From Opitutaceae bacterium (GTDB taxonomy: Bacteria > Verrucomicrobiota > Verrucomicrobiia > Opitutales > Opitutaceae): a stretch of DNA of 43,689 bases. The first letter of the stretch is position 1, and the number at the start of each line of letters is the position of its first letter. Below, piece by piece: positions 4,249 through 19,292 of the stretch. The stretch covers positions 1 to 43,689 of the forward strand of contig CANJNJ010000029.1 in NCBI GenBank assembly GCA_947474995.1. Reading direction: 5' to 3'. The notes under the pieces were generated by a model. That model made no database searches and had not been told where the DNA came from. It saw only the letters and a program-made list of their open reading frames with translations. The position numbers and the translations under genes were made by a program.

Positions 4249-4257
4249 ACGACCCCG

Positions 4258-4410
4258 TTGAAAGTTGAAGGTTGAAAGTTGAAAGACCGCTCGCGCCCCG
4301 CGGTTTCCACAAAATTGGGGCCACGGTTTGGTGGGGCTCGAAACCGCGTGATGTGGGGTGGTATCGGGTGGGTCTTCATCGCTTTCAACTTTCACCTTTC
4401 AACCTTCAAC
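4258..4410. repeat. Inverted pair of GTTGAAAG-type dispersed repeats
   Basis: A 29-base run of GTTGAAAG/GTTGAAGG units at 4258-4286 is matched in inverse orientation at 4382-4410, with about 95 bases between. The two arms agree at nearly all positions. The element sits between two co-directional genes, just upstream of the membrane protein start. A related GTTGAGAG-type run occurs inside the nuclease gene at 17705-17735, so this is a dispersed family. Confidence 0.75.
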
Positions 4411-4423
4411 TGGATTGCGCCTC

Positions 4424-5176
4424 CTACGACAATCGCTGGAAGCGATATTTCACCAAGGCCCAAATCCACGTGAGGGGGTCACGAAAGAGGGAGATTTTTT
4501 TCCCTTCCTTGAACGAGCGCGACTTGTAGCTGATGGGAATTTCGATCGGCCGGTGGCCCTGGCGCACGAGCTTGATCAAAAGTTCCCAGTCAAAGTCGAA
4601 GCGATTGGATTCAAACGTGAGCCCCTTGAGGCAATCGCGGCGGAATACTTTGTACATCGTGAAGGGATCGCGCAGCCAGATCCCGAGCGCGCAATTGATG
4701 AGCAAGGTGAAGCCCCAATGCCCGACATTGAGGATGAGCGCCTGCACGGGCTGATCCGAAAATTTGCGGATGGCCCAACCGCCCTGGCCGTGGCGCGAGC
4801 CGAGGACGAATTCCTGCCGCCCGGCCGCGATGGGCGCGAGGAGGACGTCGTAGTCCTTGAGATCGTATTCGAGGTCGGCGTCCTGGATGAGCAGGACTTC
4901 ACCCGTGGCCCGGGCGAAACCGGCGCGGACGGCGTGGCCCTTGCCGCGGGGCTTGTCCTCGAGCACCAGCGTGACGCGCGGGCGATCGCGATAACCGAGG
5001 ACGATTTCCCGCGTGCCGTCCGTCGAATTGCTTTCGACGAGAATGATTTCGAGCGTCCAGCCGGGAATCGTCTTGGCGAGGATCGCGTCGAGGGCGGCGG
5101 TCACGGTGGCGCGTTCGTTGAAGATCGGCACGATCACCGAAAGGACGCGCGGGGAGGACTCGGAAGGGGAAGGCAT
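4424..5176 (-). CDS. Glycosyltransferase family 2 (dolichyl-phosphate mannose synthase-like)
   Basis: A 250-residue cytoplasmic enzyme. The GT-A fold begins with LSVIVPIFNE at residues 12-21, followed by ILVESNSTDGT (46-54) and the metal/nucleotide site QDADLEYD at about 98-105. LLIKLVRQGHRPIEIPISYKSR towards the end is typical of GT2 enzymes that put a sugar onto a polyprenyl phosphate. There are no clear C-terminal membrane helices, so it would act at the membrane surface on its own. The ATG at 5176 is taken as start; a TTG two codons upstream is less likely. The gene follows the zinc-ribbon methyltransferase by 18 bases, probably in one operon. The sugar and acceptor are not known. Confidence 0.92.
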   Translation of the reverse strand: MPSPSESSPRVLSVIVPIFNERATVTAALDAILAKTIPGWTLEIILVESNSTDGTREIVLGYRDRPRVTLVLEDKPRGKGHAVRAGFARATGEVLLIQDADLEYDLKDYDVLLAPIAAGRQEFVLGSRHGQGGWAIRKFSDQPVQALILNVGHWGFTLLINCALGIWLRDPFTMYKVFRRDCLKGLTFESNRFDFDWELLIKLVRQGHRPIEIPISYKSRSFKEGKKISLFRDPLTWIWALVKYRFQRLS

Positions 5177-5194
5177 GGGCAACGCGCGTTGGAC

Positions 5195-6100
5195 TTAATT
5201 CGTGGCAGGTTTGCGGGCCACGGCGACGAGTCCACTGGCGACGAGGGGAAAGAGCTTTTGCCGCAATGCGGCCGGGCTCAGGGCGCGCAGCAGGCGAAGT
5301 CCGCCGGTGAGGCCGGGGATCGGATATTTTTCAAAATGAGCCGCGACGTATTCGAGGCTGAGCAGCTTCACGCCGCGATGGAGGGAGCAATCCGTGAAAC
5401 CGGCGAGGGTGAGCTGCCGCTCAATCGTGGCCGGACGATAATAGAAAAGGTGCTCTTCCTTGAATTCCATCCACCGCCGGCCGAGCAACCGGGCCGACCA
5501 GGAATCGATGCTCGGCGTGACGACGAACACCACGCCGCCGGGACGCAACAGGGCGAAGGCGGAGCGCAAAAAGGCCGCTGGGTCGCGCACGTGTTCGATG
5601 ACATCGCACAGGGCGCAGATATCGTAGGTTCCGGCTTCGCTGGCGACGGCGTCAATTTCCCCCTGAATCACGCGGCCCTTGCCACCCAGCGTGTGGCGGG
5701 CTCGCTGGCAGGCAAAGGGAGAGTATTCCACGCCGGTGACGTCGAACCCGCGTTGCGAAGCTTGCCGGAGAAAATCGCCCTGGCCGCAACCAACTTCCAG
5801 CAAGCGACCGGAAGCGGGTGCCCCGGTGGCGGCGAGCAAATCAAGGTAGCGGTCCGCGGTGGCGCGCTTCGAACGGGAAATCAGCGCTTCGCCCTCGGGT
5901 CCGCGCAGCGGCAAAATATAATCGGGGCCGTAGATGGCGGCGAGTTCAGCGTCGGCCGGCTGGGGATTGGTAAACTGCAAGCCGCAAGCCTGGCAGCGGA
6001 CCACGGGGTGCGGGCCCACCGTGACAATCCAGCGCAGCTCGCGGCCGCCGCACAAGGGGCAGGCTTCGACTTTGGGGCGAACAGGAGATGGGCCGGGCAT
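5195..6100 (-). CDS. Zinc-ribbon class I SAM methyltransferase (Methyltransf_23 type)
   Basis: A 301-residue protein starting MPGPSPVRP. An N-terminal zinc ribbon is formed by Cys14, Cys17, Cys36 and Cys39 (CPLCGG and CQACGL). Motif I is LLEVGCGQGDF at residues 100-110, and DVIEH at 166-170 is the usual post-motif II of this family. HLFYYRP near residue 230 is also typical. Proteins of this layout methylate sugars or other small acceptors in surface glycan and secondary metabolite clusters. It is likely the first gene of an operon with the GT2 enzyme downstream. Upstream lie two tandem hairpins that end the PhoD transcript. The ATG at 6100 is chosen because the zinc ribbon begins right after it and sequence further upstream is hairpin DNA. 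Confidence 0.93.
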   Translation of the reverse strand: MPGPSPVRPKVEACPLCGGRELRWIVTVGPHPVVRCQACGLQFTNPQPADAELAAIYGPDYILPLRGPEGEALISRSKRATADRYLDLLAATGAPASGRLLEVGCGQGDFLRQASQRGFDVTGVEYSPFACQRARHTLGGKGRVIQGEIDAVASEAGTYDICALCDVIEHVRDPAAFLRSAFALLRPGGVVFVVTPSIDSWSARLLGRRWMEFKEEHLFYYRPATIERQLTLAGFTDCSLHRGVKLLSLEYVAAHFEKYPIPGLTGGLRLLRALSPAALRQKLFPLVASGLVAVARKPATN

Positions 6101-6156
6101 GGACAAACGTCGGAGCAAAGGGTCGGGTTGGCAGGTTGTCGCGCCAAATTTGGCGG

Positions 6157-6201
6157 GCGGCACGCTCCACGTGCCGCTAGACCGTGCGCGGGCGCACGGT
6201 C
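6157..6201. terminator. Two tandem hairpins after the PhoD-like gene
   Basis: Between the stop of the phosphatase (6205) and the methyltransferase start lie a hairpin with an 8-bp stem (GCGGCACG/CGTGCCGC, 6157-6177) and one with a perfect 10-bp stem (GACCGTGCGC/GCGCACGGTC, 6180-6201). Neither has a T tract, so intrinsic termination is uncertain. They may stabilise a 3' end or separate the two transcripts. Confidence 0.5.
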
Positions 6202-6204
6202 CGT

Positions 6205-7971
6205 TCACTGCACGTCGTAGACCTCGACCATGATGCTTCCGACCGCGCCGTTCTGGCTTCGGGCCTGCAACGTGTAATTGCCCGGCGGAAGCGTGACGGT
6301 CATGGCCGCGTCGTGGCGCGTGGCGGTAGGCGTGGCCAGGCGGAAGGCCCCGGCCCGATCGAAAGCGGCATTGAGTGTGGTGGGATCCAGCAGGCCCCAA
6401 TTGTCGTTGGAGGCAATCGGAGTGGCGCCCTGGAAGAGGGAGAAGGCGGGCAGCGGAATTCCGTCGGCGAGATTGAAGGCGGTCAGCGAGGGTCCGACGG
6501 CGCGCAACAAAAGCGTGCGGGCCGTGCGCCCACTGACCGAGAAACCGGCCGTCATCGTGTCGCGGGGACTGCTGATCCGGCCGAGGGCGGAGATGTTGGC
6601 CAACGCACGGTCGCCGCTGACGTCGGTCGCGGTGACGGGGCGGGTTTCCACCGCGGCGGCGGACGAGCTGAATTGGAAAACCAACTTGGCCCCTTCGCCG
6701 ACGCGCTTGCCGGTGAATCGGGCCTGGATGGTCGGGCCGCCGTTATCCGTGATCTCGATGATGCCATATTGGGGTGAGCCAGGGAAGGGACCCGCCGTGT
6801 AGGGTCCGCCCTTGATATTTCCTTCCCGCGTGAGGGCCGCCGCATGGAGCACGATGAGCGGCGCGCCGCCGCCAGTGGCATAATCGGAATGGCTGCCGTC
6901 ATCGTAGGCCAGCGCATGCATGTCACCGGACAGGATGACGACATTCCTGATTCGGTTGTCGCGGAGGAAATTCGCGATCTCGGTGCGCTCGGTGGCGTGA
7001 CCGCCCCAGGTGTCGGCCCCGAGTTGAGCCGCATCGATCCACGGGTCGCTGTTGGCCCAGAGGATGAGGGGAAAGCCGGCATCGCGCGCGCTGATGAGCT
7101 CCTGCTTGAACCAGGCCTTTTGGGCGGGACCCAAGCGGGACTTGGTGGCTGACTCGGGGAGAAGGGGATCGCTGGCGGCGCTCCGGGTGTCGGTCATGAT
7201 CACGCGCACCCGACCGACGGTGAATGATTGCGCCACGGTGCCGCCGGGCACGTTGATCGGGTAGTGCGGGACGTATTCGCGATACGTGGCCCGCGCGGCG
7301 GCGGCGCCGATGGCGGTGCCGTTGCTATTGTCGCCTCCGGAGAAATCGTGGTCGTCCCACATGTAGGCAATCGGCACGCTGCGATAAAGGGCTCCCTCGT
7401 TCGGGTGGTTCAGCACCTGGTCGTAGATCCGCCGGTAGTCGTCGGGATTGGTGGTCTTGATGTCGGCGTAATGCAGGTCGCCCGTGTGGATCATCAGGAG
7501 GGGTTGTTCGGCGCGGATTTCATCGAACGCGCGCTGGTCGGGGTCCCGAAAATCCCCGCAGGAGGCGAAGGCAATCTTGAAGGAGGCCGCACCTTGCGGA
7601 AAGGTGCGGAATCGACCGCGCGAATTGGGCTCGCTTCCCAGCGCGCCGCCCACCTCGAGGCCGTAGAAATATTCGGTGTTCGGCAGCAGTCCGTCCACGT
7701 CGATTGAAACGACGTTGCCCACGAGCGCGTTCGTGAGTTCGGGATTCGAAAAAATTGCCGGGGTCAGCGACGCGTTGGGACTGATCGCGAGGCGGACGCG
7801 AAGCCCGGGGGCATTTAACCGAATGGAAACCGTGGCACTGGTGGGCGTGACGTTGCCGCTCCAAGCTCCGCCCGCGAAGGGCGAAGGAGTTTGCGCCCAC
7901 GCCATTCCGATGGCACCCACCACCGACGTGGTCCATTTAAGAAAGTTGCGGCGCAATATGGGTGTAAACAC
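6205..7971 (-). CDS. Tat-exported PhoD-like phosphatase with C-terminal beta domain
   Basis: A 588-residue secreted phosphoesterase. The N-terminus has a twin-arginine signal (RRNFLK at residues 7-12, then a hydrophobic stretch ending AWAQ), as in Bacillus PhoD. A PhoD N-terminal beta domain occupies about 30-125. The calcineurin-type metal site follows: ASCGD (136-140), HTGDLHYAD (162-170), WDDHDFSGGD (205-214) and SGDMHALAYDDGSHSDY (348-364). These give a complete set of Asp/His ligands, so hydrolysis of phosphomonoesters or diesters outside the cytoplasm is expected. Residues about 457-588 form a separate domain (ISALGR..., LLLRAVGPSLTAF, LPPGNYTLQA, MVEVYDVQ), also found twice at the end of the neighbouring CotH protein. 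The gene is divergent from CotH with about 170 bases between. Confidence 0.92.
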   Translation of the reverse strand: MFTPILRRNFLKWTTSVVGAIGMAWAQTPSPFAGGAWSGNVTPTSATVSIRLNAPGLRVRLAISPNASLTPAIFSNPELTNALVGNVVSIDVDGLLPNTEYFYGLEVGGALGSEPNSRGRFRTFPQGAASFKIAFASCGDFRDPDQRAFDEIRAEQPLLMIHTGDLHYADIKTTNPDDYRRIYDQVLNHPNEGALYRSVPIAYMWDDHDFSGGDNSNGTAIGAAAARATYREYVPHYPINVPGGTVAQSFTVGRVRVIMTDTRSAASDPLLPESATKSRLGPAQKAWFKQELISARDAGFPLILWANSDPWIDAAQLGADTWGGHATERTEIANFLRDNRIRNVVILSGDMHALAYDDGSHSDYATGGGAPLIVLHAAALTREGNIKGGPYTAGPFPGSPQYGIIEITDNGGPTIQARFTGKRVGEGAKLVFQFSSSAAAVETRPVTATDVSGDRALANISALGRISSPRDTMTAGFSVSGRTARTLLLRAVGPSLTAFNLADGIPLPAFSLFQGATPIASNDNWGLLDPTTLNAAFDRAGAFRLATPTATRHDAAMTVTLPPGNYTLQARSQNGAVGSIMVEVYDVQ

Positions 7972-8141
7972 CCAGTTTTAGTTAGGGCGGATGATTTTTG
8001 AAGCAAGCGCCAAGACGGGGCATTTTTGGATTTACACTTTTGGGATGCGGCGTCGGGTGAATCGCCGCCGGAAATCGCCGGGGCGGCGCGAGGAAAGTGT
8101 GATTGCCATCGTCGGGTTCACCCCCTCGTGTCCATCGGCCC
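7972..8141. promoter_or_regulatory. Divergent intergenic region between PhoD-like and CotH genes
   Basis: These 170 bases must hold the promoters of both genes. AT-richer patches occur near 7975-8045 (for example TTTTTGGATTTACACTTTTGG), but no promoter boxes or Pho-box repeats could be assigned with confidence. Shared control is plausible because of the divergent layout and the shared C-terminal domain. Confidence 0.3.
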
Positions 8142-11100
8142 ATGATTTTCCATCTGCTACCCCGGCGCGTCGCTCTCTGGTTCGTGCTCGTGGTCGGTGT
8201 GGGGAGCCTGGCGTACGCCGATCCGATCATTTCGGAATTCATGGCGTCGAACCAAAAGACCGTGGCCGACGCCGACGGAAATTTTTCCGACTGGGTGGAA
8301 CTCTATAATCCCGACGCCGTCGCGTTTGATCTGACCGGTTGGTATCTGACGGATAACACGGCGAACAAAACCAAATGGCAGTTTCCCGCTGTCACCCTTC
8401 CAGCCAATGGCTATTTGGTCGTCTTTGCGTCGAATCAAAACCGACGCGACCCAGCAAAGCAGCTCCACACCAACTTCGTCCTCGGAGCCAGCGGGGGCTA
8501 TCTGGGCTTAATCAAGGCTGATGGCGCGACCGTCGCGACCGAATTTGCCCCCAAGTATCCCGCGCAGTTCGTGGACATTTCCTACGGCGTCACCCAACCG
8601 ACGACGTCGGGCGAGGCGCCGCGTCTTGGATTTTTTCGGAATCCAACCCCCGGGGCGCGCAATCCGGGGGTCGATGGGCTCGTGATTTTCGAGCGAGTGT
8701 CATTTTCCCGGCCCTCCGGGCCTTTCACCGGCACGGTGGCCGTGACGCTGGCTGGTGCGACGGCGGGTCAGAGCATTCGCTACGTGGTCGCGCCTGCTTC
8801 AGCGAGCGGCGCCAACGTGTTGGATCCCACCAACAAATCCGCCGAGTACACGGGACCGATTGCCATCAGCGCGTCCTCGATTATCCGGGCCACCGTTTTT
8901 TCCGCCAACGGCGTGAACCAGGGAATCGCGACCTCGGCGCATTACCTGCGGCTGGCGACCTCCGGCTCGGCTCGGCTCGATACGTTTTCCAGTCAGATTC
9001 CCCTCCTCGTGATCGACACGCACGGCACGGGTCCGCTGGTCAAGGACGGCATCGAGCGTCCCGCCTGGCTCTACGCGTGGGACCGGGCCAAGACCGGATT
9101 GACGGCGCTGACCAGCGCACCCACCTGGGCCACGTCACTCTCGACCAACGTCCGGGGGGCGTCGTCGTCGGATTTTCCCAAGAAAGGATATGCGCTGCGA
9201 CTCAACGACGGACTTGGGAACGACAATCCGCTCCCGCTTTTCGGCCTCCCGGCCTTTGGGAATTGGTCGTTGATCGCGACTTGGAACTACGACCGTTCGC
9301 ACATCCACAACCGTTTCATTTATGCCTTGAGCAACCGCATCGGTCGGTGGGCCCCGCGGACGCAGCCGGTCGAGGTGTTTTTCAACGCGAATGGCGGCGA
9401 CCTCGATGCGAGCGACTATGTGGGGCTCTACGTGCTGACCGATTCGCTCAAGATTGATGCGGCGCGCATCGATATCAAAGCCATCGACCCGACGGACGTG
9501 GGACCCTCGGCGGTCACGGGCGGCTATCTGCTCAAGGTGGATTTGGCCGACACCGACGAGCTCAATTTTCAAACCCGCTACGGCTTTCCCGGGATGCCGT
9601 CGGCCGTCGTGGTCGATACGCCCAAGCTTGCCGCCATGCCCAAGGCCCAGCGCGACTACATCCAGGGGTACGTGCAGAATTTCGAGGATGCGCTGTACCG
9701 CGATTATGCCGGCGGCTGGCAGCAACGGACGCACCTCGACTACATCGACCGGCCGGCATGGATCGATCATCACATTATCAGTGTTCTTGCCATGAACGTC
9801 GATGCCCTCCAGCGCAGCGCGTACCTGACGAAAGACCGCAATGGCCGCCTCGCGGCGGGTCCGGCGTGGGACTATGATCGTTCGATGGGCGGAGGCGACG
9901 TGCGCGCGGACATTCCGGATATCTGGCATGGGCCCGACGGCTGCACGGACTACTGGGCCTTCGGTTGGTGGGGGGTGCTGGCGCGGGATCCCAATTTCAT
10001 GCAGGCGTGGATCGATCGCTGGCAGGGCCTGCGCCAAGCGGAATTTTCCACGACCAACCTCACGGCGCTCGTCGATGCGCTGGCGGCCGATATCGGCCCC
10101 GCCGCGGCCGCCCGTGATGCGGTGCAGTGGCCGAACAACGCCAGTCGCTTCGGCGGCAGTTGGCAGGGTGAAATTGATCACCTGAAGACGTGGCTGACGC
10201 AGCGCGTGAATTGGATCGACGCGCAATTTGTCCCCCCGCCGGCGGTCACCCAAGCCGATGGTACGTTCAAAATTACCGCGGCCGCGAACACGCAGATCGC
10301 TTACACCACCGACGGTTCCGATCCCCGCGCCTTCGATGGCAAGCTGGGCTTGACGGCAAAACTGGCGACCGGGTCGTTGACGTTCGCGGAGTCGATCAAT
10401 CTCCAGGCGCGTGGTTACCGCGCGGACGTGGATCCGGATGCGGTGCCCGGGAGTGCTTGGAGCGGCGCCGTCGGCGGTCCCAACTCTTCGCCGCTCACCG
10501 TTCGACCCCGCCTCGCCAATTTGTCCAGTCGCGGCTTCGTGGCCGGCGAAGACAAGAATCTGGTCGCAGGCGTCGTGGTCAGCGACACCGCGGGCAAGCA
10601 GTACCTGGCCCGGGCGGTCGGTCCCGCCCTCGCGGGATTCGGCCTGACCAACACGCTCGCCGACCCGGTGCTCACGATTCTCGATGCCGCGGGCAAAGAA
10701 ATTGCCCGGAACAGCGGTTGGGGCACGGGTCCGGATGCCGCCCAGTTGCCGGCGATCAGTGCGGCCGCGGGCGCGTTCCCGCTGACCCGCAACAGCAAGG
10801 ACTCCGCGTTGATCATCCGGTTGCCGTTTGGCCAGTATGGGCTGCAGGTTTCGAGTGCGAGTGGCGCAACCGGCGTTGGCATGGTGGAACTCTACGAGTT
10901 GGATTCGGCGGTCGGACGGACCCTGAATCTCTCGACCCGCGGGTGGGTGCGAGCGGGCGACGGGATGCTGGTTGTGGGGCTGACCGTTGCCGGCACCGCT
11001 CCAAAACCAATGGTGATCCGCGCGGTGGGTCCGGCGCTCGCCGATTTTGGCGTGGCCGGTGTGTTGGCCGATCCGGTCCTAGCCATTCGTTCGGGCGGCA

Positions 11101-11324
11101 ATCTCGTCGCCACCAACGACGATTGGGAAAACCCGGTCGGGACGGCCGTGACGGCGGCGCAGATTAGTGCCGCTTCAGGCTTGGTGGGCGCGTTCGCGCT
11201 GCCCGCTGGCGGCCGGGATGCGGCGCTGGTGATGACGCTTCCTCCCGGCGGTTATACCGTGGAAGTCACTGGCAAGGCGAACGCCGAAGGCTTGGTTCTC
11301 CTCGAGGTGTACGAATTGCCATAG
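8142..11324 (+). CDS. Secreted CotH kinase-family protein with lamin-tail domain and two C-terminal repeats
   Basis: A 1060-residue exported protein. The ATG at 8142 is chosen because it starts a Sec signal peptide (MIFHLLPRR, then hydrophobic to SLAYA). Modules in order: a lamin-tail domain (about 26-160; IISEFMASN, DWVELYNP, LTGWYLTD), a chitobiase-C-like beta domain (about 190-275), a CotH domain (about 290-650) with FPKKGYALRLND, YVGLYVLTDSLKID and the signature GPAWDYDRSMGG near 570, another small beta domain, then two copies of a 130-residue repeat (about 789-920 and 922-1060) with RAVGPALA.FG and LVEVYEL-type motifs. CotH of Bacillus is a spore-coat protein kinase, and bacterial relatives with lamin-tail domains are secreted. 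A role in phosphorylating or binding a surface component is inferred. It is divergent from the PhoD-like gene, which carries one copy of the same repeat. Confidence 0.9.
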   Translation: MIFHLLPRRVALWFVLVVGVGSLAYADPIISEFMASNQKTVADADGNFSDWVELYNPDAVAFDLTGWYLTDNTANKTKWQFPAVTLPANGYLVVFASNQNRRDPAKQLHTNFVLGASGGYLGLIKADGATVATEFAPKYPAQFVDISYGVTQPTTSGEAPRLGFFRNPTPGARNPGVDGLVIFERVSFSRPSGPFTGTVAVTLAGATAGQSIRYVVAPASASGANVLDPTNKSAEYTGPIAISASSIIRATVFSANGVNQGIATSAHYLRLATSGSARLDTFSSQIPLLVIDTHGTGPLVKDGIERPAWLYAWDRAKTGLTALTSAPTWATSLSTNVRGASSSDFPKKGYALRLNDGLGNDNPLPLFGLPAFGNWSLIATWNYDRSHIHNRFIYALSNRIGRWAPRTQPVEVFFNANGGDLDASDYVGLYVLTDSLKIDAARIDIKAIDPTDVGPSAVTGGYLLKVDLADTDELNFQTRYGFPGMPSAVVVDTPKLAAMPKAQRDYIQGYVQNFEDALYRDYAGGWQQRTHLDYIDRPAWIDHHIISVLAMNVDALQRSAYLTKDRNGRLAAGPAWDYDRSMGGGDVRADIPDIWHGPDGCTDYWAFGWWGVLARDPNFMQAWIDRWQGLRQAEFSTTNLTALVDALAADIGPAAAARDAVQWPNNASRFGGSWQGEIDHLKTWLTQRVNWIDAQFVPPPAVTQADGTFKITAAANTQIAYTTDGSDPRAFDGKLGLTAKLATGSLTFAESINLQARGYRADVDPDAVPGSAWSGAVGGPNSSPLTVRPRLANLSSRGFVAGEDKNLVAGVVVSDTAGKQYLARAVGPALAGFGLTNTLADPVLTILDAAGKEIARNSGWGTGPDAAQLPAISAAAGAFPLTRNSKDSALIIRLPFGQYGLQVSSASGATGVGMVELYELDSAVGRTLNLSTRGWVRAGDGMLVVGLTVAGTAPKPMVIRAVGPALADFGVAGVLADPVLAIRSGGNLVATNDDWENPVGTAVTAAQISAASGLVGAFALPAGGRDAALVMTLPPGGYTVEVTGKANAEGLVLLEVYELP

Positions 11325-11595
11325 CTCGGGGGCGGGTTTCCCTTCTTCGTCCGTTCGAGTAAGCTGCGCCATTCAGGTTCCACGTGCCAGGGGGGCCGGC
11401 ACTCCGTGCGTGGCCCGGGCGTAAGGACCGACTCCTCCGTCCTGCGGCCGCGCGGCGGCGCGTCCAGCCCACCCCGGCGCGTAGTGCAGTAAAGGTCCGT
11501 CGCCCGACTTCGCTGCGATTGAGCAGATCGCGGGGCGCCGAGGGTCGCAAAGCGGCGTTTTCCCGCGAACGCACCCCGAAATCTCAAAGGGTATT
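11325..11595. other. Convergent intergenic region with a palindromic repeat
   Basis: These 271 bases lie between the ends of the CotH gene and the HlyD-like gene. No coding is visible. They contain a copy of repeat family A at 11376-11418 and a GC-rich stretch to about 11470 with a small hairpin (AGGAC/GTCCT, near 11424-11442). The region may end transcription from both sides. Confidence 0.5.
11376..11418. repeat. Palindromic repeat family A, diverged copy
   Basis: The reverse complement reads GGCCACGCACGGAGTGCCGG and continues into a CCC-rich tail. This matches family A copies at 25481-25520 and 40171-40245 (core GGCCGCGCACGGAGTGC) with a few changes. It is the least conserved of the three. 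Confidence 0.55.
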
Positions 11596-12699
11596 TCAGT
11601 GAATCACCACGTCGACGTGCTCGCCGGGGACTAAAGTCAGGCCTTGGGGCAAGGCGAATTCGACCCGCAAGCCTGATTCGGGCGCGGGTGAAGTGGGCAG
11701 CCGCATCGCGGCGATGAGTGTCGGGAGGATTGGCTCCATGGCCGGACCCACCTGTAGAATCTTGGTGGCCGCGATATGGCGGTGCAGCGTTCGCGTGCGA
11801 ATTTCGGCTGACATGCCGACCTTGGGCTCGAACGGAATGGGCTGCTGCAGAAATCCGACCAAACGTTCTGGCTTGGTCGCGCTGATCCGGAGAACGGGCT
11901 CGCCCGCGACCACGGTTTCACCGGTGCGTCGAAGTTGGAGCGCGATGATTCCGCTCATGGGCGCGACGAGCGGCAGGGGGTTGAGTTGCGCCTCGGCGAG
12001 CTGGAGTTTGGCCTCCTGCAGTTTGATCCCGGAAGCGAGCGCGGCGTCCGGTGACAGGGCGGCCGCCTGAGCCTCCGGCGTCGCAAGGGTTTTGACCAAC
12101 GGTTCGAGGTAAGCGACCAATTTGGACTGCTCCTCGACTTGCGCGGTGAGGGAATCGCGCGTGATCTTCATTTGTTCGTAAGCTTCCTCGGTGATCATCG
12201 CCGCCGCATACAACGGCGTGCCGCGCGTCAAATCAGCTTCGGCCTGTTGCAGGCGCCCGCGGAGGGACGCGAGCTCGACGCGGTGATTCATCCAATCCAG
12301 CTGCATGCGTTCCAGCGCAATCGTGACTCGCTGCGCGTCGGTGACACCGGCCAGAGAGGCGTTGAGCATCCCAATGTCCGCCTTGATGACCGCGAGGGTG
12401 GCGTCGAGGACCCGGGGGTTGGCGCTGGCGACCTGGCCGATGACGTCTCCCGCCTTGACCGTCTGCAACACCTCAATTTTAAGGCCGACGAGCATGCCGG
12501 CCTGGGGCGCGCGCACCTCGACGTGCGTGAAATCCGCCTCCGCGACAAGGGTGGCGGGAGCGACCCAGTTCGACCAGAGCCACGCGGCGGCCACCACGCC
12601 GACGAGAAACATCGCCCGCGGCAAATAGAGCAGCCGGAATTCCTTCCAGCGTTGGGCGGGCGGAGTCGGGATGGGGCCGAGTATGCGTGGGTCGTTCAT
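11596..12699 (-). CDS. HlyD-family membrane-fusion (periplasmic adaptor) protein
   Basis: A 367-residue protein with one membrane helix at about 29-46 and the rest periplasmic. The first lipoyl half-motif is VEVRAPQAGMLVGLKI (60-75) and the second PLVAPMSGIIALQLRR lies after a long alpha-helical hairpin of about 100-235, followed by a beta-barrel part. HlyD/EmrA-type adaptors normally bridge an inner-membrane pump and an outer-membrane channel. Here no ABC, RND or MFS pump and no TolC homologue is present. The partner encoded directly upstream is the DUF4956 membrane protein, with three bases between the genes, so these two are probably co-translated. It is the last gene of the VTC-DUF4956-adaptor operon. 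What it moves is not known. Confidence 0.9.
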   Translation of the reverse strand: MNDPRILGPIPTPPAQRWKEFRLLYLPRAMFLVGVVAAAWLWSNWVAPATLVAEADFTHVEVRAPQAGMLVGLKIEVLQTVKAGDVIGQVASANPRVLDATLAVIKADIGMLNASLAGVTDAQRVTIALERMQLDWMNHRVELASLRGRLQQAEADLTRGTPLYAAAMITEEAYEQMKITRDSLTAQVEEQSKLVAYLEPLVKTLATPEAQAAALSPDAALASGIKLQEAKLQLAEAQLNPLPLVAPMSGIIALQLRRTGETVVAGEPVLRISATKPERLVGFLQQPIPFEPKVGMSAEIRTRTLHRHIAATKILQVGPAMEPILPTLIAAMRLPTSPAPESGLRVEFALPQGLTLVPGEHVDVVIH

Positions 12700-12702
12700 G
12701 GG

Positions 12703-13386
12703 CTAGATCTCCGACTCCTCGGCCGCTTGCACACTCGAAACACGTTCCACGCCGGGGAAGGCGGCCAGTTCGGTGAGGAGTTCGGCGGCGCGCGCCGGAT
12801 CGCGCAGGAGAATCCGATACGAAAGATCGGCGCCCTCCATGCCCTTGCCGAAATGCTGGTTGGCGACGTGCACCCGCAGGCTGTGGCGCTCCAGGAGGAA
12901 CATCACCTCGGACAACTCGTCCGGCGGGCGCATCCAGCGCACATTCAGGATGAGGTCGAAGCGATGCCGCGTGCCGGCTGCCGTCATCCAAAGGTAAATC
13001 ATCAATAAGGCGATGGCGGGTCCACCGACGATTGCCGTGGAAAACTTCTGCGTGCCGCACGCCGTGCCGAGGATAATCACGGCGAGCACATAGCAGGTAT
13101 CGAGAGTGTCGCGCAGCACATTGCGGAACCGCACAATCGCGAACACGGCCATCAGGCCCAGGCCGATGACGAAATTGTTGGCCATCACCAGCAGCACGAG
13201 CGCGACGAGGACCGGCAGAACAATCAGCGAAACCACGAACGACCGCGAATACGAGATTCCCGAATGGGTGAAAACGTAGACCCAAGCGAAGAGCTGGCCA
13301 AAGAGAAAGGCCAGGATCAACGCCAGCGCGACGGTGTGAAAGTTGGTTGGGGCGAGTCCACTATCCCCTTCTAGGAAGAAATTCAT
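12703..13386 (-). CDS. DUF4956 membrane protein
   Basis: A 227-residue protein with four or five membrane helices between about residues 18 and 135, then a soluble C-terminal domain of about 90 residues. The segment AVFAIVRFRN, between helices 3 and 4, is the DUF4956 signature, and the tail (DLILNVRWMRPPDE onwards) resembles a small ferredoxin-like regulatory fold. DUF4956 genes are regularly found next to VTC-domain genes in bacteria, but as far as I know have no proven function. Here the ATG overlaps the VTC stop codon (ATGA at 13383-13386), a sign of translational coupling. A likely role is as the membrane partner of the VTC enzyme, perhaps in moving or anchoring its product (inference). 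Confidence 0.9.
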   Translation of the reverse strand: MNFFLEGDSGLAPTNFHTVALALILAFLFGQLFAWVYVFTHSGISYSRSFVVSLIVLPVLVALVLLVMANNFVIGLGLMAVFAIVRFRNVLRDTLDTCYVLAVIILGTACGTQKFSTAIVGGPAIALLMIYLWMTAAGTRHRFDLILNVRWMRPPDELSEVMFLLERHSLRVHVANQHFGKGMEGADLSYRILLRDPARAAELLTELAAFPGVERVSSVQAAEESEI

Positions 13387-14240
13387 CGGCGATTGGGTCC
13401 TAGGGCACTACGCAGTGACGCGGAGGCGTCAAGCCAAGGCGCACTGGTGGCGGCGGAAGTTTCAGATGAGCCCCATTCAAAACCGGTGCGCCGGCGGGCG
13501 ATTTTGTGTTCGCCGAGCAGGTAGACGCCCATGCCGTACTTGGCCGCTCCGCTCTTGGTGAGGTCGAAGCCGCGCACCATTTCAATCATCCACGTGGGCA
13601 TGAGTTCGGTGAACTTCAGCTCAAGAATCACAAAACCGGCGTAGACCTCGACCCCATTCTCCAAGGCGATGGGCAGGTCGCCGCCGAATTCCGGGCCGAG
13701 GCGGACCGCGCGATCAATCGTTACGCGCGCGGTGGCTTTGCCCGCAGTCACGTAGGCTTCGCGCATGTAGGCGTTGTGGGCGCGGGGCGCCGCCTCGATC
13801 GTCTCGACCAGGCGCCAGAAATCGAGCAGGTCCGCCCAGTGCTGGGGATGCCAGGACTGCAGGTGGTCGCGGGTCGGGCTCTCCCCGATTAAGAGTGAGT
13901 GGACCGCCTCGCGCCGGACCCGGGCGCGTTGCTTGACGATGCCTTCGTTGATCCGCCGCTTGATTTCGAAAAACACCGGCGAGTCCGGATTGTCATCGTA
14001 ATAACGGATGCGCAGCTTGAAGCGGTTGCGCTCGCCGATGATAAACGATGCGCGGTAGGTGTCCAAGTTGTTCGAGTCCAGGTAGAGCGAGTGAACCGTG
14101 TAGGAATTGTCGGCTTTGCCGATGGCAAACTCATCCGGCTCGAGGTAGCAGCTGACGAAACTTCGGACGGCCAACGCGGTGTCTTCCTTAATCAGGTATT
14201 TGATCTCGCGTCGTGAACGTTGGGCGCGGTCAGTCTTCAT
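13383..14240 (-). CDS. VTC-domain protein (polyphosphate polymerase-like)
   Basis: A 285-residue cytoplasmic protein with the triphosphate-tunnel fold of yeast Vtc4, which makes polyphosphate from ATP. Conserved pieces are visible along the sequence: RREIKYLI (10-17), SLYLDSNNLDTY (51-62), FKLRIRYY (74-81), VFFEIKRR (89-96), a central helical lid, VTIDRAVRL (173-181), ILELKFTELMPTWM (205-218) and KYGMGVYLL (234-242). The basic residues K14, R78, R80, K94, R95, R180 and K209, and acidic E92 and E207, line the expected tunnel, so it looks catalytically intact. The SPX domain of the yeast protein is absent, as usual in bacteria. The ATG at 14240 is preferred; a GTG at 14264 is the alternative. 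It is the first gene of the three-gene operon. The real product may be polyphosphate or another phosphate polymer. Confidence 0.9.
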   Translation of the reverse strand: MKTDRAQRSRREIKYLIKEDTALAVRSFVSCYLEPDEFAIGKADNSYTVHSLYLDSNNLDTYRASFIIGERNRFKLRIRYYDDNPDSPVFFEIKRRINEGIVKQRARVRREAVHSLLIGESPTRDHLQSWHPQHWADLLDFWRLVETIEAAPRAHNAYMREAYVTAGKATARVTIDRAVRLGPEFGGDLPIALENGVEVYAGFVILELKFTELMPTWMIEMVRGFDLTKSGAAKYGMGVYLLGEHKIARRRTGFEWGSSETSAATSAPWLDASASLRSALGPNRR

Positions 14241-14344
14241 GGGAGGTAGACAACTCACTGCCACGATGTATCACTGGCAACTGAAAAAAGGCCCGATGTG
14301 AAATGGGTTCGACTTGCCGGACCGCTCTCGGAAGATGCCGCGCG
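14241..14344. promoter_or_regulatory. Divergent promoter region between VTC operon and phytase-like gene
   Basis: About 104 bases separate the two starts, so both promoters and any shared operator lie here. An AT-richer stretch (ATGTATCACTGGCAACTG, then AAAAAAGG) occurs at 14265-14291. I could not assign promoter boxes. The layout allows joint control of the operon and the secreted esterase. Confidence 0.3.
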
Positions 14345-16855
14345 ATGCGCAGATTTCCTCTTGTTCGGGCCGGCCTCGCCCTGCTGGCGGCGGCTGGCGT
14401 TTCCGTGGCGGTGGCGCAGACCGCCACGTTGGGCGGGGCGACCTATACGAACAAGGGGATCGTGGGCGCAGGTCGGGTGGACCACACGAAGCGGGACAAG
14501 TTTGGCGAGACGTTTGGTTCACTGTCCGGTCTCGCGCTCGATCTGCGTTCGTGGAAGCGCGTTTCCAACAATACCTACACCGGAATTCTCTACGCCCAGC
14601 CGGATCGCGGCTACGTCAAATCCGGTGTCACGACCAACTACCAGCCGCGGCTCAACCGCCTCGCGCTGACGTTCAAGCCCGACACGAATGGTTCTTCGAA
14701 CCAGGACCAAGCCACGCTCACGCTCGCCGATACCACGCTCCTGACCGAGGCCGACGGCACGCCCCTGACCGGCATGGATCCGAGCCCGACCACCGTGGGC
14801 ACGCGGGCGGGATTCCCCAAGCTGCCGCAGGTCGTCAACGGCCGGCTCTCGCTTGACGCCGAGGGCCTGGTCTTGTTGCCCGACGGCTCTTTCTTTGTGT
14901 GCGACGAGTACGGTCCGTACCTCTATCGCTTCAGCGCCGCCGGGGTTTTGCTCGGGGTGATTCGGCCGCCCGAGGCGGCGATTCCGAAGCGGAATCTCCA
15001 GGACTCGTTCTCGTCCGACAGCCCGGCCGCTCTCCAGCCGGCCGCCTCGCCGAGCCAGCCGACCAATGGGCGCGAAAATAACAAGGGGCTCGAAGGTCTC
15101 TCCCTTTCCGCCGATGGCCGGACGCTTTACGCACTGATGCAGTCCGCCACGCGCCAGGATGGCGGGGCCGGGGGCGTGGCGGAAAACCGCTACGTGCGCC
15201 TATTCGCCTACGATGTCACCAATCCCGCGAGCGCGCCGCTCACGGGCGAGTGGGTGCTGCCGCTGCCGTTCTACACGGATGCCAACCGCTTCCAGCAGAT
15301 TGCCGAGCAGCACGAGTGCCTCGTCCTCAATAGTCACCAGTTTCTGGTCCTGGCGCACGACGGCAATGGCCGCGGTGCCTCTGTGACCCGTTCCCTGTAC
15401 CGCGCCGTGCTTCTTTACGATATCGGTGGTCCCGGCGTGCCGAACGCGACCAACATTGCCGGTACGGTCTACGACACGGCGACCGCGCCGGTTGCGCAGA
15501 ACGGCATTCTCAACAACGCCATCGTGCCGGCCCGATTCGAGGTGCTGGTCAATCTCAACGATGAAACCCAACTCGCCAAGTTCGGGCTCAACAACAATGC
15601 CAACGACAATTCCGAAACGCTCTCAAACGCGTGGGAAAGCCTGGCTCTCGCCCCGGTGCTCGATCCGGCCGCGCCGGACGATTATTTTTTGTTCATCGGC
15701 AACGACAACAATTTCTCGACGGGCAGCGGCTTCCAAGGCGTCGCCGCCTACAGCGCCTCGCCCAACCTCGACACGATGGTGCTCGTCTATCGGGTGACGT
15801 TGCCGGGCGTCATGACGGTGCCGAATATCTCCACGCTGCCATCGGGGCGCACGGTTGGCCTCGGTGCGGCGACGACGTTTTCCGCGGCGGCGATGGGTGG
15901 ACCGACGCCGACGTTGCAATGGAGCAAGGATGGCGTGGTCCTCGCGCCCACGGCGAATTCCGACCTGACGTTGGCGGCCACCCAACCCCGCGATGCCGGG
16001 CTCTATCTGGTCACGGCCGCGAACGCGAACGGCAGTGTTGCGAGCGCCGCCGCCATTCTCGGGCTGACCAGCGGGGCGAAGTTAACCGGGCTCGGCACGG
16101 AGTTTTCGGACATTTTTCATCCGGGAACGGGATTTACCTATGACCAAATCCTGCTGGGCGGCTCGGCGGCGAGCGTCACCGCCGACCCTGGTCAGATTTT
16201 ACGCATTTCGTATATCGATTTGAACGACGACATCGTGCAGGTCGAATTTTCCGGCTCGGGCACGCTCTCGCTGGTGCTCGACGCCGCTTCGGGTCCGGCC
16301 GCGCCGGTGTCCTACAACCAAGCCACGACCTATATGAAAGGCCACGCCGGGATCGTCCTGGCCGGAGCGAACGTCGGCACGAACCTTACGGTCTTTAGCG
16401 TGGGACGGGCGAACGCCGTCAATCAGGCGCTCTTCCGCAGCGATGTAACCTATGACGGTTTCGCCGATCTCGCGTTCATCGCGATCACGAGCACCGACGG
16501 AAAATTTGGCGGACTGCGCGCGGCCAACGCGAGCCTGTGGGCCACCAAGGGCCTCACCGGCATCTACGCGCCGGGCGTGCAATTCACCGGACCGGTGTTC
16601 ATCAGCGACATCAACGCTTTGGCCGACGCGACTCCCGTGTTTAACCTCGGCTCCGGCACGGATGTGCGTGTGACCGGCGGCGACTTGCTGCAGACGAACG
16701 GCCGGGCCGTGCAGGTAAGTGGAATCACGCAGGCGAAATTCACTGCTGGGAGCAATTCGCACGGAACCCTTTTCTCCGCCCAGAACAACCAGGGCCGGCT
16801 TGAGCAGAACGGCCTCGACGTCACGGCGCAGATCGTCGTCAACCCGACGCCGTAA
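14345..16855 (+). CDS. Secreted phytase-like esterase with Ig-like and extra C-terminal domains
   Basis: An 836-residue exported protein. The ATG at 14345 begins a Sec signal peptide (MRRFPLVRAGLALLAAAG, cleavage after about residue 25, AVAQ). Residues about 45-490 form a beta-propeller of the 'esterase-like activity of phytase' family: GSLSGLALD, ILYAQPDRGY, SLDAEGLVLLPDGSFFVCDEYGPYLYRF, NKGLEGLSLS and a late WESLALAP segment. Family members are calcium-dependent and cleave phosphate esters. An Ig-like domain follows (about 495-575; PTLQWSKDGVVLA, DAGLYLVTAAN), then about 260 residues of beta-rich sequence that I do not recognise (DILRISYIDLNDD-type strands). It does not end with the repeat domain of its PhoD and CotH neighbours. 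It is divergent from the VTC operon. Confidence 0.85.
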   Translation: MRRFPLVRAGLALLAAAGVSVAVAQTATLGGATYTNKGIVGAGRVDHTKRDKFGETFGSLSGLALDLRSWKRVSNNTYTGILYAQPDRGYVKSGVTTNYQPRLNRLALTFKPDTNGSSNQDQATLTLADTTLLTEADGTPLTGMDPSPTTVGTRAGFPKLPQVVNGRLSLDAEGLVLLPDGSFFVCDEYGPYLYRFSAAGVLLGVIRPPEAAIPKRNLQDSFSSDSPAALQPAASPSQPTNGRENNKGLEGLSLSADGRTLYALMQSATRQDGGAGGVAENRYVRLFAYDVTNPASAPLTGEWVLPLPFYTDANRFQQIAEQHECLVLNSHQFLVLAHDGNGRGASVTRSLYRAVLLYDIGGPGVPNATNIAGTVYDTATAPVAQNGILNNAIVPARFEVLVNLNDETQLAKFGLNNNANDNSETLSNAWESLALAPVLDPAAPDDYFLFIGNDNNFSTGSGFQGVAAYSASPNLDTMVLVYRVTLPGVMTVPNISTLPSGRTVGLGAATTFSAAAMGGPTPTLQWSKDGVVLAPTANSDLTLAATQPRDAGLYLVTAANANGSVASAAAILGLTSGAKLTGLGTEFSDIFHPGTGFTYDQILLGGSAASVTADPGQILRISYIDLNDDIVQVEFSGSGTLSLVLDAASGPAAPVSYNQATTYMKGHAGIVLAGANVGTNLTVFSVGRANAVNQALFRSDVTYDGFADLAFIAITSTDGKFGGLRAANASLWATKGLTGIYAPGVQFTGPVFISDINALADATPVFNLGSGTDVRVTGGDLLQTNGRAVQVSGITQAKFTAGSNSHGTLFSAQNNQGRLEQNGLDVTAQIVVNPTP

Positions 16856-17598: not shown

Positions 17599-18684
17599 TT
17601 ATCTCCGCGCCATTTTCTCCCAGTCGCCGAATTCCCAGGCGGCCTTGCGTTCGGCGAGGCCGGTTGCGAGGAGGTGGTTGTTGAGGAAGAGCGGCCCTTC
17701 GGGCGGTTGAGAGTTGAGAGATGAGAGTTGAGAGTCGGATCCCGGAGCCAACTCGAGGAAGACGTCGGCGAGGTAGCGGTCGTATTTGTCGGGCTTGGTG
17801 GTGTGCACGGTGACGGACTTCGCGGCGGCAACTAGGGCCTCGACACGGCGTTTCGCGGTCTTGCCCTCGGGGGTGTCGATCTCGGGACAATCGAGTCCGC
17901 GGAGTCGCAACTTTTGCCGGAGCACAACGCCGGGCAGTGCCAGGGCGACTTCGAGGGTGTCGCCGTCGATCACGCGCCGCACGGTGGCGGCGTAGGTGAA
18001 AAGTTCGGTGGACTTGCCATCTGCGACGGCACTGACGCCGCCTTCGGCGTCGACCGCCACAGTTTCCCCGGCGGTGCGGTGGCGGGCCTGCGCCGGCGGC
18101 AGCGGCCGGCAGAGCTTGAAGCCGAGGTCGAGCCCCAGCCCATCGTCGAGGGCAATGACGCGGTAACGGCCAACGAGGCCACGCTTGGGCGTGAGCAGGT
18201 CGGCGGTTGGAGCCGCGGCCGTTTTGTCGGCCAAGCCCTCTGCGCCGCTCGAGCGGACGTTGCGGGCGGCGTTCAACTCTCGGACGCGCCGTTGGATTTC
18301 TCCCGAGGCCCAGTCGTGCTTCCTGGCCTGGGCGGTCAGCGCCGCGCGCTGCGGTTCATCGTCGACCTGGCAAAGGAGCCGGCACCGGTTCCAGCCCAAT
18401 TGTGCGACAGGTCGCACAATTGGGTAATATAGATAGAACTGTACACATTCATGCAGCGTGCGACTGCTGACTTTGACATCATGCGCCAGTCGGGTGAAAA
18501 GTTTGGCCCCATACCCGGCGCGCTTTTGGTTGCACAGCAGATGCTCCTGAATCAGCCGGCCGATATCGTGGTACGTGCGAACCCACGCGGCCTCGATGTC
18601 CCGGCGGCCGGCATACAGGACGCGTTCGACACTGCGGCGCAGCGTGGGATAGGTGGCTGCGGTCGTGAGTGGGGCGGGAGACAT
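17599..18684 (-). CDS. DUF1016_N-staphylococcal nuclease fusion protein
   Basis: A 361-residue protein with two recognisable ends. Residues about 15-140 match the DUF1016 (YhcG) N-terminal helical domain: GRLIQEHLL, GYGAKLFTRLAHDV, LHECVQFYLYYP, GWNRCRLLCQV. Residues about 232-350 are an SNase domain with the whole catalytic set: D242 in IDGDT, R260, D265 and E268 in RLRGLDCPE, and R303 in KYDRYLADV, matching D21, R35, D40, E43 and R87 of the Staphylococcus enzyme. A linker with LTPKRGLVGRYRV (164-176) joins them. Usual DUF1016 proteins end in a PD-(D/E)XK nuclease domain, here replaced. No signal peptide is visible, so it should be a cytoplasmic nuclease, possibly in defence or DNA processing (inference). 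Two oddities: a perfect 30-bp palindrome at 18395-18424 inside the first domain, and a dispersed repeat in frame at 17705-17735. The ATG at 18684 is preferred; a farther one at 18741 is less likely. Confidence 0.82.
   Translation of the reverse strand: MSPAPLTTAATYPTLRRSVERVLYAGRRDIEAAWVRTYHDIGRLIQEHLLCNQKRAGYGAKLFTRLAHDVKVSSRTLHECVQFYLYYPIVRPVAQLGWNRCRLLCQVDDEPQRAALTAQARKHDWASGEIQRRVRELNAARNVRSSGAEGLADKTAAAPTADLLTPKRGLVGRYRVIALDDGLGLDLGFKLCRPLPPAQARHRTAGETVAVDAEGGVSAVADGKSTELFTYAATVRRVIDGDTLEVALALPGVVLRQKLRLRGLDCPEIDTPEGKTAKRRVEALVAAAKSVTVHTTKPDKYDRYLADVFLELAPGSDSQLSSLNSQPPEGPLFLNNHLLATGLAERKAAWEFGDWEKMARR
17705..17735. repeat. GTTGAGAG-type dispersed repeat inside the nuclease frame
   Basis: Runs of GTTGAGAG and ATGAGAG encode SDSQLSSLNSQPP (residues about 316-328) on the minus strand. 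The unit resembles the GTTGAAAG runs at 4258-4410. It falls between the last catalytic Arg strand and the C-terminal helix of the SNase domain and keeps the frame open. Confidence 0.6.
18395..18424. promoter_or_regulatory. Perfect 30-bp palindrome inside the DUF1016 coding region
   Basis: The arms CCCAATTGTGCGAC and GTCGCACAATTGGG are exact complements separated by AG. The element encodes PIVRPVAQLGW (residues 88-98) of the DUF1016 domain. A perfect 14-bp dyad within coding sequence is unlikely by chance and could be a protein-binding site, perhaps autoregulatory, or an mRNA hairpin. Confidence 0.45.
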
Positions 18685-19292
18685 GAAAACGGGATTGGGT
18701 CTGTCATGGGCTTTTCCTGCGTGGCGTTCAATCCAGGTCATCCGACGCCAGCCGGAATTCGCTCCACTTCAAACCGTCCGAGCCGGACATCGATGGGCGT
18801 GGTTCGAGGCTTTGCTGGCCGATCCGAAAAACAACGCGCCGCTGTTTTGATGGGAAAGCACATTTCAGCAGTTCACGGAACCTTCGGATTCGGATTTGCA
18901 CAGGAGGCCAAACCGAGTTCGAGCCGAGAAAAAAGAATGCACCCACCTCCGTCCGACCTCGGCTTGTCCTCCTGTAAAATGGTTTGGGGCCTTGGGCGCG
19001 GATTAGAACCGGGGCAAGGCGTTCGCGGTTCGAGCATGCACCCGGCGGTGAATGTATTGGTCTCGGGGCGTGGGGAGATTTGAACCACTCATTCACACTA
19101 ATGGGACACTAATCCGGCGACGACCCACCGTCTGTCCTATTAGTGAGTCATTAGTGCGGATTAGTGGCAGAAGTTGCCTTGGATTCAGCCTGACGGGCCA
19201 CTCAAAGGGACAAATCAGTTTTGGACCACGGATTACACGGATTTCACGGATTCAAGCCGCCTTTATCCGGGATTGATCCGTGTAATCCGTGG
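18685..19292. other. Gene-free region with two inverted-repeat elements
   Basis: About 600 bases upstream of the nuclease and beyond the end of the next methyltransferase. A plus-strand 65-codon frame at 18653-18850 lacks a recognisable domain and overlaps the nuclease start, so it is not called. From 19086 onward two inverted-repeat elements fill the space (19086-19168 and 19221-19296). The nuclease promoter should lie in 18685-18900, but I cannot place it. Confidence 0.5.
19086..19168. repeat. Inverted repeat built of CACTAAT units
   Basis: A left arm at 19086-19116 (ends GGGACACTAATCCG) is matched by a right arm at 19134-19168 containing TCATTAGTGCGGATTAGTGG. The arms pair imperfectly around a GC-rich loop. 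It lies next to a second, similar inverted repeat. Confidence 0.6.

Follow-up and report, generated by a model that had tools for sequence, protein, structure and literature searches.

We found that an uncultured Opitutaceae bacterium encodes a putative VTC polyphosphate polymerase, a DUF4956 membrane protein and a HlyD-type periplasmic adaptor together, in what is best read as an operon that makes polyphosphate and, probably, exports it across the cell envelope. We give this reading an even chance of being correct. The protein families, the tunnel residues of the polymerase, the fold of the adaptor and its docking motif, the operon spacing, and the recurrence of an envelope partner were all observed in sequences or in a structural model. 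Export itself we infer from the comparison of sequences.

A six-gene block and its recurrence among Opitutaceae

The window (the whole stretch of DNA analyzed, 43,689 nucleotides) contains a block of six genes. The genes, with their Pfam matches, and the sites within them that are discussed below are:

6205-7971, minus strand: PhoD-like phosphatase (PF09423, 1e-27), with a twin-arginine-type signal by eye
8103-11324, plus strand: secreted CotH kinase-fold protein with a lamin-tail domain (CotH PF08757, 9e-42; LTD PF00932, 1e-14)
9795-9872, plus strand: CotH active-site region, with N-x-D and W-D (N216, D218, W240, D241)
11596-12699, minus strand: HlyD/EmrA-type periplasmic adaptor, or membrane fusion protein (HlyD_3 PF13437, 3e-7)
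12190-12225, minus strand: HlyD motif R159-x3-L163-x6-T170 at the hairpin tip, from alignment and model
12703-13386, minus strand: DUF4956 membrane protein (PF16316, 8e-10)
13123-13131, minus strand: DUF4956 Arg86-Phe-Arg88, at the end of predicted helix 72-87
13383-14264, minus strand: VTC, triphosphate-tunnel polyphosphate polymerase domain (PF09359, 1e-34)
14303-16855, plus strand: secreted phytase-like esterase family protein with an Ig-like domain (PF13449, 8e-32)

A sequence-only reading had named these six genes and given their orientations, and it was right in both: all six are real, each with the expected Pfam domain. By eye, likelier start codons lie at about 14240 (VTC), 14345 (phytase-like) and 8142 (CotH). 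There is a 4-nt overlap between VTC and DUF4956 and a 3-nt gap between DUF4956 and HlyD; judged from this spacing, the three genes look like one tight transcription unit. The same reading took all six genes to point at phosphate chemistry. HlyD and DUF4956, however, are no phosphate enzymes, and "phytase-like" is the name of a Pfam family (111.7 bits versus a cut-off of 27.6), the activity of the protein itself being putative.

A VTC gene turned up in 38 of 115 relatives, and 43 further neighborhoods were fetched. A scan of GTDB contigs contributed the best 80 of 271 confirmed VTC loci, almost all of them with Verrucomicrobia or one of its subgroups in their titles. The clade of the window comprises 20 loci (L054-L071, with 63-72% VTC identity, plus L018 and L027), one of which (L061) is a lone VTC copy and was left out, giving 19 loci that were scanned. 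All 19 had VTC, DUF4956 and the phytase-like gene, 18 had HlyD, 13 had CotH and 8 had PhoD, with several of the contigs ending early. The proteins of the block are 54-82% identical across the clade, and the six genes that flank the block (three on each side) were found at 0/19 loci. Because the block recurs in order and its flanking genes do not recur, gene order appears to have been kept while the surroundings changed, more than by chance. The earlier reading had allowed that the six genes might be neighbors in this genome only; they are not, as all six occur together in eight further loci. It had also allowed that VTC-DUF4956 might elsewhere lack the other members, which is partly so: HlyD recurs, and among loci L011-L133 PhoD and the phytase-like gene lie beside VTC only in this clade.

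These counts bear on the possibility that the six genes came together by accident in a single clade, with a VTC operon happening to lie next to unrelated secreted enzymes. PhoD-CotH pairs and phytase-like genes do occur elsewhere, some of them in VTC-less genomes, which would fit an accident. Against it, the surface genes stand beside VTC in 19 (phytase-like), 13 (CotH) and 8 (PhoD) of the 19 loci, at 54-82% identity, where no flanking gene does, and we consider an accident very unlikely.

The window PhoD matched the PhoD structure 2yeq (1.5e-16) with GD, DDH and GD-H aligned, which we take to be metal motifs; it missed the NCBIfam equivalog for alkaline phosphatase PhoD (55.5 bits versus a cut-off of 1000). 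In CotH, N216, D218, W240 and D241 were invariant in 5/5 sequences, and the N-x-D and W-D residues presumably bind metal. An alignment of the five CotH sequences matched the CotH structure 5jd9 (E = 6e-29), and no solved structure was matched by the window CotH sequence alone.

The make-up of the block is modular. Among PhoD copies with at least 60% identity in the relatives, window included, 29/35 lie divergently beside CotH; 7 of the 29 pairs are on a VTC contig, a number that may be low where fragmented contigs hide some. All 12 phytase-like copies with at least 60% identity, window included, are beside VTC, and phytase-like relatives at 53-58% identity sit away from it, some in VTC-less genomes. 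Within the genus of the window there was no genome-wide association between the phytase-like gene and VTC (12/17 versus 6/10, p = 0.68). CotH (at least 44% identity) was present in 16/17 VTC-bearing versus 2/10 VTC-less genomes of the genus, with p = 1.7e-4 uncorrected for kinship and genome size, both of which confound the association. Because the PhoD-CotH pair is mostly away from VTC and the phytase-like gene has no genome-wide association with it, the block is, by these comparisons, a VTC-DUF4956-HlyD operon with surface genes as an optional addition, and not one indivisible system. The earlier proposal that the block makes and moves a phosphate polymer keeps its core by comparison, as VTC-DUF4956-HlyD recurs across the Verrucomicrobiota, often with TolC, and a different envelope partner is present at other loci; it loses the view that all six genes form one system. 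The surface enzymes of the window appear to be a clade-specific addition, and their link to the polymer is unproven.

There were several other observations on secreted proteins and neighboring genes. A second divergent PhoD-CotH pair is present in the genome of the window (L249, contig C211; 1302-3065, minus strand, and 3446-6361, plus strand) with no VTC beside it. A second, weaker phytase-like protein (35% identity) is encoded some 1.7 kb away from one of the two PPK1 genes of this genome (L248, contig C128; the two genes are at 4920-6677, minus strand, and 8352-10562, plus strand), and the next frame is metallophosphatase-like by eye. One weak paralogue at that distance is too thin to serve as a hint that polyphosphate is the substrate of the phytase-like proteins. 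Secreted proteins of the window share a C-terminal domain of some 140 residues (6208-6651, minus strand; 10509-11318, plus strand), which has 56 matches in the genome, often in tandem, and perhaps serves in sorting or anchoring. Given these 56 matches, we rejected the domain as grounds for a joint system of PhoD, CotH and the phytase-like protein. At 17599-18741 (minus strand), the window encodes an odd fusion in one reading frame, in which residues 47-154 form a DUF1016 N-terminal domain and residues 277-365 a staphylococcal-nuclease-like domain.

The putative polymerase, the membrane protein and the adaptor

The VTC domain of the window scored 120 bits against a curated Pfam cut-off of 23. 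In an alignment of the window with the 25 of 40 references listed, the tunnel residues E20, K22, R85, R87, K102, K111, R168, R180, E215, K217 and K242 were invariant (26/26). A VTC profile found structures of yeast Vtc4 first (3g3q, E = 1e-25), with the basic tunnel residues and the catalytic Glu aligned. The invariance and the Vtc4 alignment bear out the earlier claim that the catalytic basic residues are intact. By Pfam, the 293-aa chain contains the VTC domain alone, and no SPX or membrane domain was found in it. PPK1 is kept in 27/38 VTC genomes, with two copies in the genome of the window, and we therefore rejected the idea that VTC replaces PPK1.

Yeast has the same domain seated on a membrane channel with a lining of basic residues; there, synthesis is coupled to translocation, and mutation of these residues eliminates the vacuolar polyphosphate store (PMC9911596). 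The yeast complex (Vtc1/3/4, with cytosolic synthesis and vacuolar translocation) and the bacterial operon have in common the catalytic tunnel domain with its conserved residues, and in both the polymerase adjoins a membrane protein, here one with invariant basic residues. Yeast VTC has SPX and a fused membrane domain, whereas bacterial VTC has neither and DUF4956 would be the membrane part. The adaptor and outer-membrane parts would be bacterial additions.

The DUF4956 protein of the window matched PF16316 with 39.2 bits (cut-off 30.6). Its AlphaFold2 model (pLDDT 83) has five predicted N-terminal helices followed by a C-terminal ACT/ferredoxin-like domain. In a structure search, this C-terminal domain matched ACT-like folds, including the C-terminal domain of MgtC (2lqj); the matches shown fall mainly on that domain and barely cover the membrane half. 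A sequence search of the PDB with DUF4956 gave no match better than E = 0.25. Arg86 and Arg88 were invariant in 204/204 unique sequences with a residue there, the sole positions to reach 204/204. By analogy, we infer that these arginines may parallel the basic residues of the yeast VTC channel.

In a different reading, DUF4956 is a regulator or sensor, with an MgtC-like membrane part and an ACT domain, and adjusts VTC or ATP synthase within a phosphate-stress regulon, with no export of polymer. The predicted membrane plus ACT-like architecture is consistent with such a role, as is the description of a streptococcal DUF4956 member as MgtC-like with ACT (PMC12345266, excerpt). Homology to MgtC was rejected: hhalign gave a probability of 0.4% in a comparison with MgtC-type proteins from five relatives (five sequences only, of the long type only), and DUF4956 had no match to PF02308 (MgtC) at E = 0.01. 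Because a profile match to MgtC is absent, we claim a likeness of architecture only. In addition, a simple scan of three intergenic stretches found no Pho-box-like site at ≤4 mismatches, and HlyD, TolC or porins are not called for by a regulator. We regard this role as quite unlikely.

In its model, the window HlyD has an N-terminal membrane helix, a split lipoyl domain, an alpha-hairpin and a beta-barrel, and EmrA was the best-scoring solved structure. The tip of the hairpin is at residues 166-170. R159 and L163 were invariant (24/24), and the third motif position was S or T in 19/24 by eye; we take R-x3-L-x6-S/T at the tip to be the "RLS" motif for docking to TolC. The TolC-bearing relatives in the alignment (A4; L042, L046-L048) have E or D, not S/T, at the third place. 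We found no TolC gene on the contig of the window, and 11 OEP proteins are encoded on other contigs of the genome. HlyD adaptors normally serve pumps, and the adaptor fold, hairpin and docking motif found here are also those of the EmrAB-TolC and MacAB-TolC pumps. Those systems have a pump gene, whereas here VTC-DUF4956 occupies the place of the pump; a TolC-family gene is in line in 23/71 loci of the phylum draw described below, but not in the window. No ABC, RND or MFS pump was found among the nine window genes scanned, the operon consists of VTC, DUF4956 and HlyD only, and we know of no pump function for DUF4956.

Envelope partners of VTC-DUF4956 beyond the clade

When neighboring genes at unique VTC loci were clustered without labels, the four large clusters were VTC (98 members), DUF4956 (91), HlyD (79, all at +2 on the same strand) and a mixed cluster of LTD, CotH, PhoD and phytase-like surface proteins (68). 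The next cluster had 14 members at scattered places, and no further neighbor was at a fixed position.

VTC was present in 66/337 genomes drawn from the Verrucomicrobiota and in 43/247 genomes drawn from a second phylum (probably Bacteroidota; the phylum of the L129 genome), from which 40/48 places were fetched. The partner counts keep duplicates between draws, and outside the window genes were labeled HlyD, TolC or CotH with profiles made in this analysis. In the Verrucomicrobiota draw, DUF4956 was beside 67 of 71 VTC genes and absent from 4. The partner was HlyD with TolC at 23 of these 67 loci, HlyD alone at 10 and a porin O/P relative at 7 (40/67 together), and there was no envelope partner at 27, of which 24 had CotH near. 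The 43 VTC genes of the relatives had HlyD (25), HlyD with TolC (4), a porin (1), no partner (7) or no DUF4956 (6); the GTDB loci (best 80 of 271) had HlyD (68), no partner (4) or no DUF4956 (8); and the 40 VTC genes of the second phylum had HlyD (23), HlyD with TolC (1), DUF2490 (12) or no partner (4). With duplicates removed, HlyD in the second phylum was at -1 in 15 loci, at -2 in 1 and at +2 in 7. As HlyD occurs both upstream and at +2 of VTC, it is linked to VTC-DUF4956 in more than a single arrangement. Across the 3.5 Mb of fetched DNA, 165 genes matched the HlyD profile, and 155 of the counted VTC genes have one adjoining. Over all loci, duplicates kept, the median spacing was about 0 nt for VTC-DUF4956 (206 pairs), 3 nt for DUF4956-HlyD (139) and -4 nt for HlyD-TolC (28).

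The labels were compared with Pfam. TolC labels had a match in 11/13 cases (one just under the cut-off; L156 and L160 without a match), and HlyD labels in 8/9 (seven over the cut-off; L227 without a match). In divergent loci, the gene after HlyD belonged to the TolC family in 3/4 scanned (Pfam), L040 having no match. DUF2490 was confirmed in 12/12, with weak outer-membrane-barrel matches alongside in several. A porin O/P gene (PF07396) lies directly after DUF4956 in 8/8 Verrucomicrobiota loci so labeled, all confirmed by Pfam, and one of these (L044) belongs to the window's own family. These porins, which are absent from the window, take the place of HlyD after DUF4956; the family match is weak (E-values between 2e-7 and 8e-12) and partial, spanning some 150 of the 370 profile positions. 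Both phosphate and polyphosphate can cross porins O and P. As judged from sequence, then, an envelope partner of VTC-DUF4956 is often present in these two phyla and differs by lineage: HlyD, HlyD with TolC, a porin O/P relative or a DUF2490 barrel.

A plasmid collection contained four loci of Gram-positive type (Planococcus, Paenibacillus, Pseudobutyrivibrio and Nonomuraea). VTC-DUF4956 was present in 4/4, CotH in 3/4 and an envelope partner in 0/4, a contrast with two-membrane bacteria that, at four loci, is no more than suggestive. DUF4956 and DUF2490 genes also appear together in a table of iron-responsive genes of Bacteroides thetaiotaomicron (BT3498-BT3499; PMC10434189), as they do in 12 loci here; the passage on them in that paper gives no function.

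Individual loci showed other arrangements. In another part of the Verrucomicrobiota (L178-L187, L196, L197 and L205-L207), VTC, DUF4956 and CotH are co-directional with no envelope gene. The order in L231 is CotH-DUF4956-HlyD-TolC-VTC, all co-directional, with TolC confirmed by Pfam. An ABC-F-type ATPase is encoded directly upstream of VTC in L226 (4444-6504, plus strand), and L229 has an upstream gene of comparable length. In L137 (Pseudobutyrivibrio plasmid pNP95), CotH-VTC-DUF4956 lies amid glycosyltransferase, acyltransferase and pyruvyl-transferase genes, with no Pel genes in the annotation shown.

Proposed polyphosphate export and its alternatives

In the reading that we prefer, cytoplasmic VTC would polymerize the gamma-phosphate of ATP inside its basic tunnel, and the chain would go straight into DUF4956, with Arg86 and Arg88 as counterparts of the basic residues of the yeast channel. 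DUF4956 would carry the polyphosphate through the inner membrane. HlyD would take up the chain in the periplasm and dock to a TolC-type channel, whose gene would be elsewhere in the genome here and is directly downstream in some relatives; in other lineages a barrel may take polyphosphate out instead of HlyD/TolC. Outside the cell, CotH, PhoD and the phytase-like protein may put phosphate onto the polymer or onto surface molecules, take it off or recycle it.

The grouping of these families has precedent. CotH, a poly-P polymerase and DUF4956 are accessory genes of Gram-positive Pel loci (PMC7112168), which agrees with the earlier statement that VTC and DUF4956 are known neighbors with CotH sometimes near. 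The three families are clustered there as they are here; in Pel loci the set is tied to Pel, and HlyD and TolC are not mentioned in the excerpt of that paper. Single mutants of each of the three genes in Streptococcus intermedius still aggregate; the DUF4956 and CotH mutants aggregate less, with more and less Pel, respectively, and for the polymerase mutant the excerpt reports no change (PMC12345266). From effects of DUF4956 and CotH mutants without a reported effect of the polymerase, DUF4956 and CotH may act without VTC. According to the same excerpt, the CotH-polymerase-DUF4956 arrangement was not found outside Pel loci, in contrast to the many loci outside Pel in which we found it.

VTC-DUF4956 might bring polyphosphate to the periplasm only, where it would fuel extracytoplasmic chemistry such as phosphorylation of surface proteins or glycans by CotH, and HlyD/TolC would export another product, for example a phosphorylated glycan. 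The altered amounts of Pel in DUF4956 and CotH mutants (PMC12345266) favor this possibility. So does the frequency of VTC-DUF4956 with CotH and without an envelope partner (24/27 partnerless loci in the Verrucomicrobiota draw). This partnerless set is also the Gram-positive form, and it has glycan genes nearby both in two annotated plasmids and in Pel loci (PMC7112168). Delivery to the periplasm only leaves unexplained why an envelope gene is inside the VTC-DUF4956 operon with gaps near zero, and why one alternative partner resembles phosphate-selective porins. We consider this alternative possible but doubtful.

Several findings count against export across the envelope: the 27/67 loci without a partner, the S. 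intermedius polymerase mutant, the E or D in the docking motif of TolC-bearing relatives, the weak porin matches, the normal service of HlyD to pumps, the presence of PPK1 as well, and the lack of a TolC gene on the window's contig.

Searches of the literature (few subscription journals, no preprints) found no paper on polyphosphate together with HlyD and VTC, and the sole match for bacterial "polyphosphate export" concerns a diatom; among the other papers listed, PMC7112168 alone gave a sign of the arrangement. The sequence-only reading did not know an assembly with an adaptor, PhoD and a phytase-like enzyme as described. The CotH-VTC-DUF4956 part is already known from Pel loci, and the outer-membrane arm appears undescribed within the literature searched.

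A broader extension is that VTC-DUF4956 serves bacteria in general as a polyphosphate synthase-translocase whose outer-membrane exits are interchangeable (HlyD/TolC, porin O/P or a DUF2490 barrel), that CotH kinases draw phosphate and energy from the exported polyphosphate, and that PhoD and the phytase-like protein are erasers. This extension is speculative and we think it unlikely. If it were true, the cell surface would be phosphorylated at the expense of polyphosphate in a place where ATP is absent.

If the export reading is right, DUF4956 would gain a function, there would be a concrete set of genes in at least two phyla for the exit of polyphosphate and for the donor of secreted kinases, and the principle of yeast VTC, making a polymer and threading it through a membrane, would extend to the two-membrane envelope.
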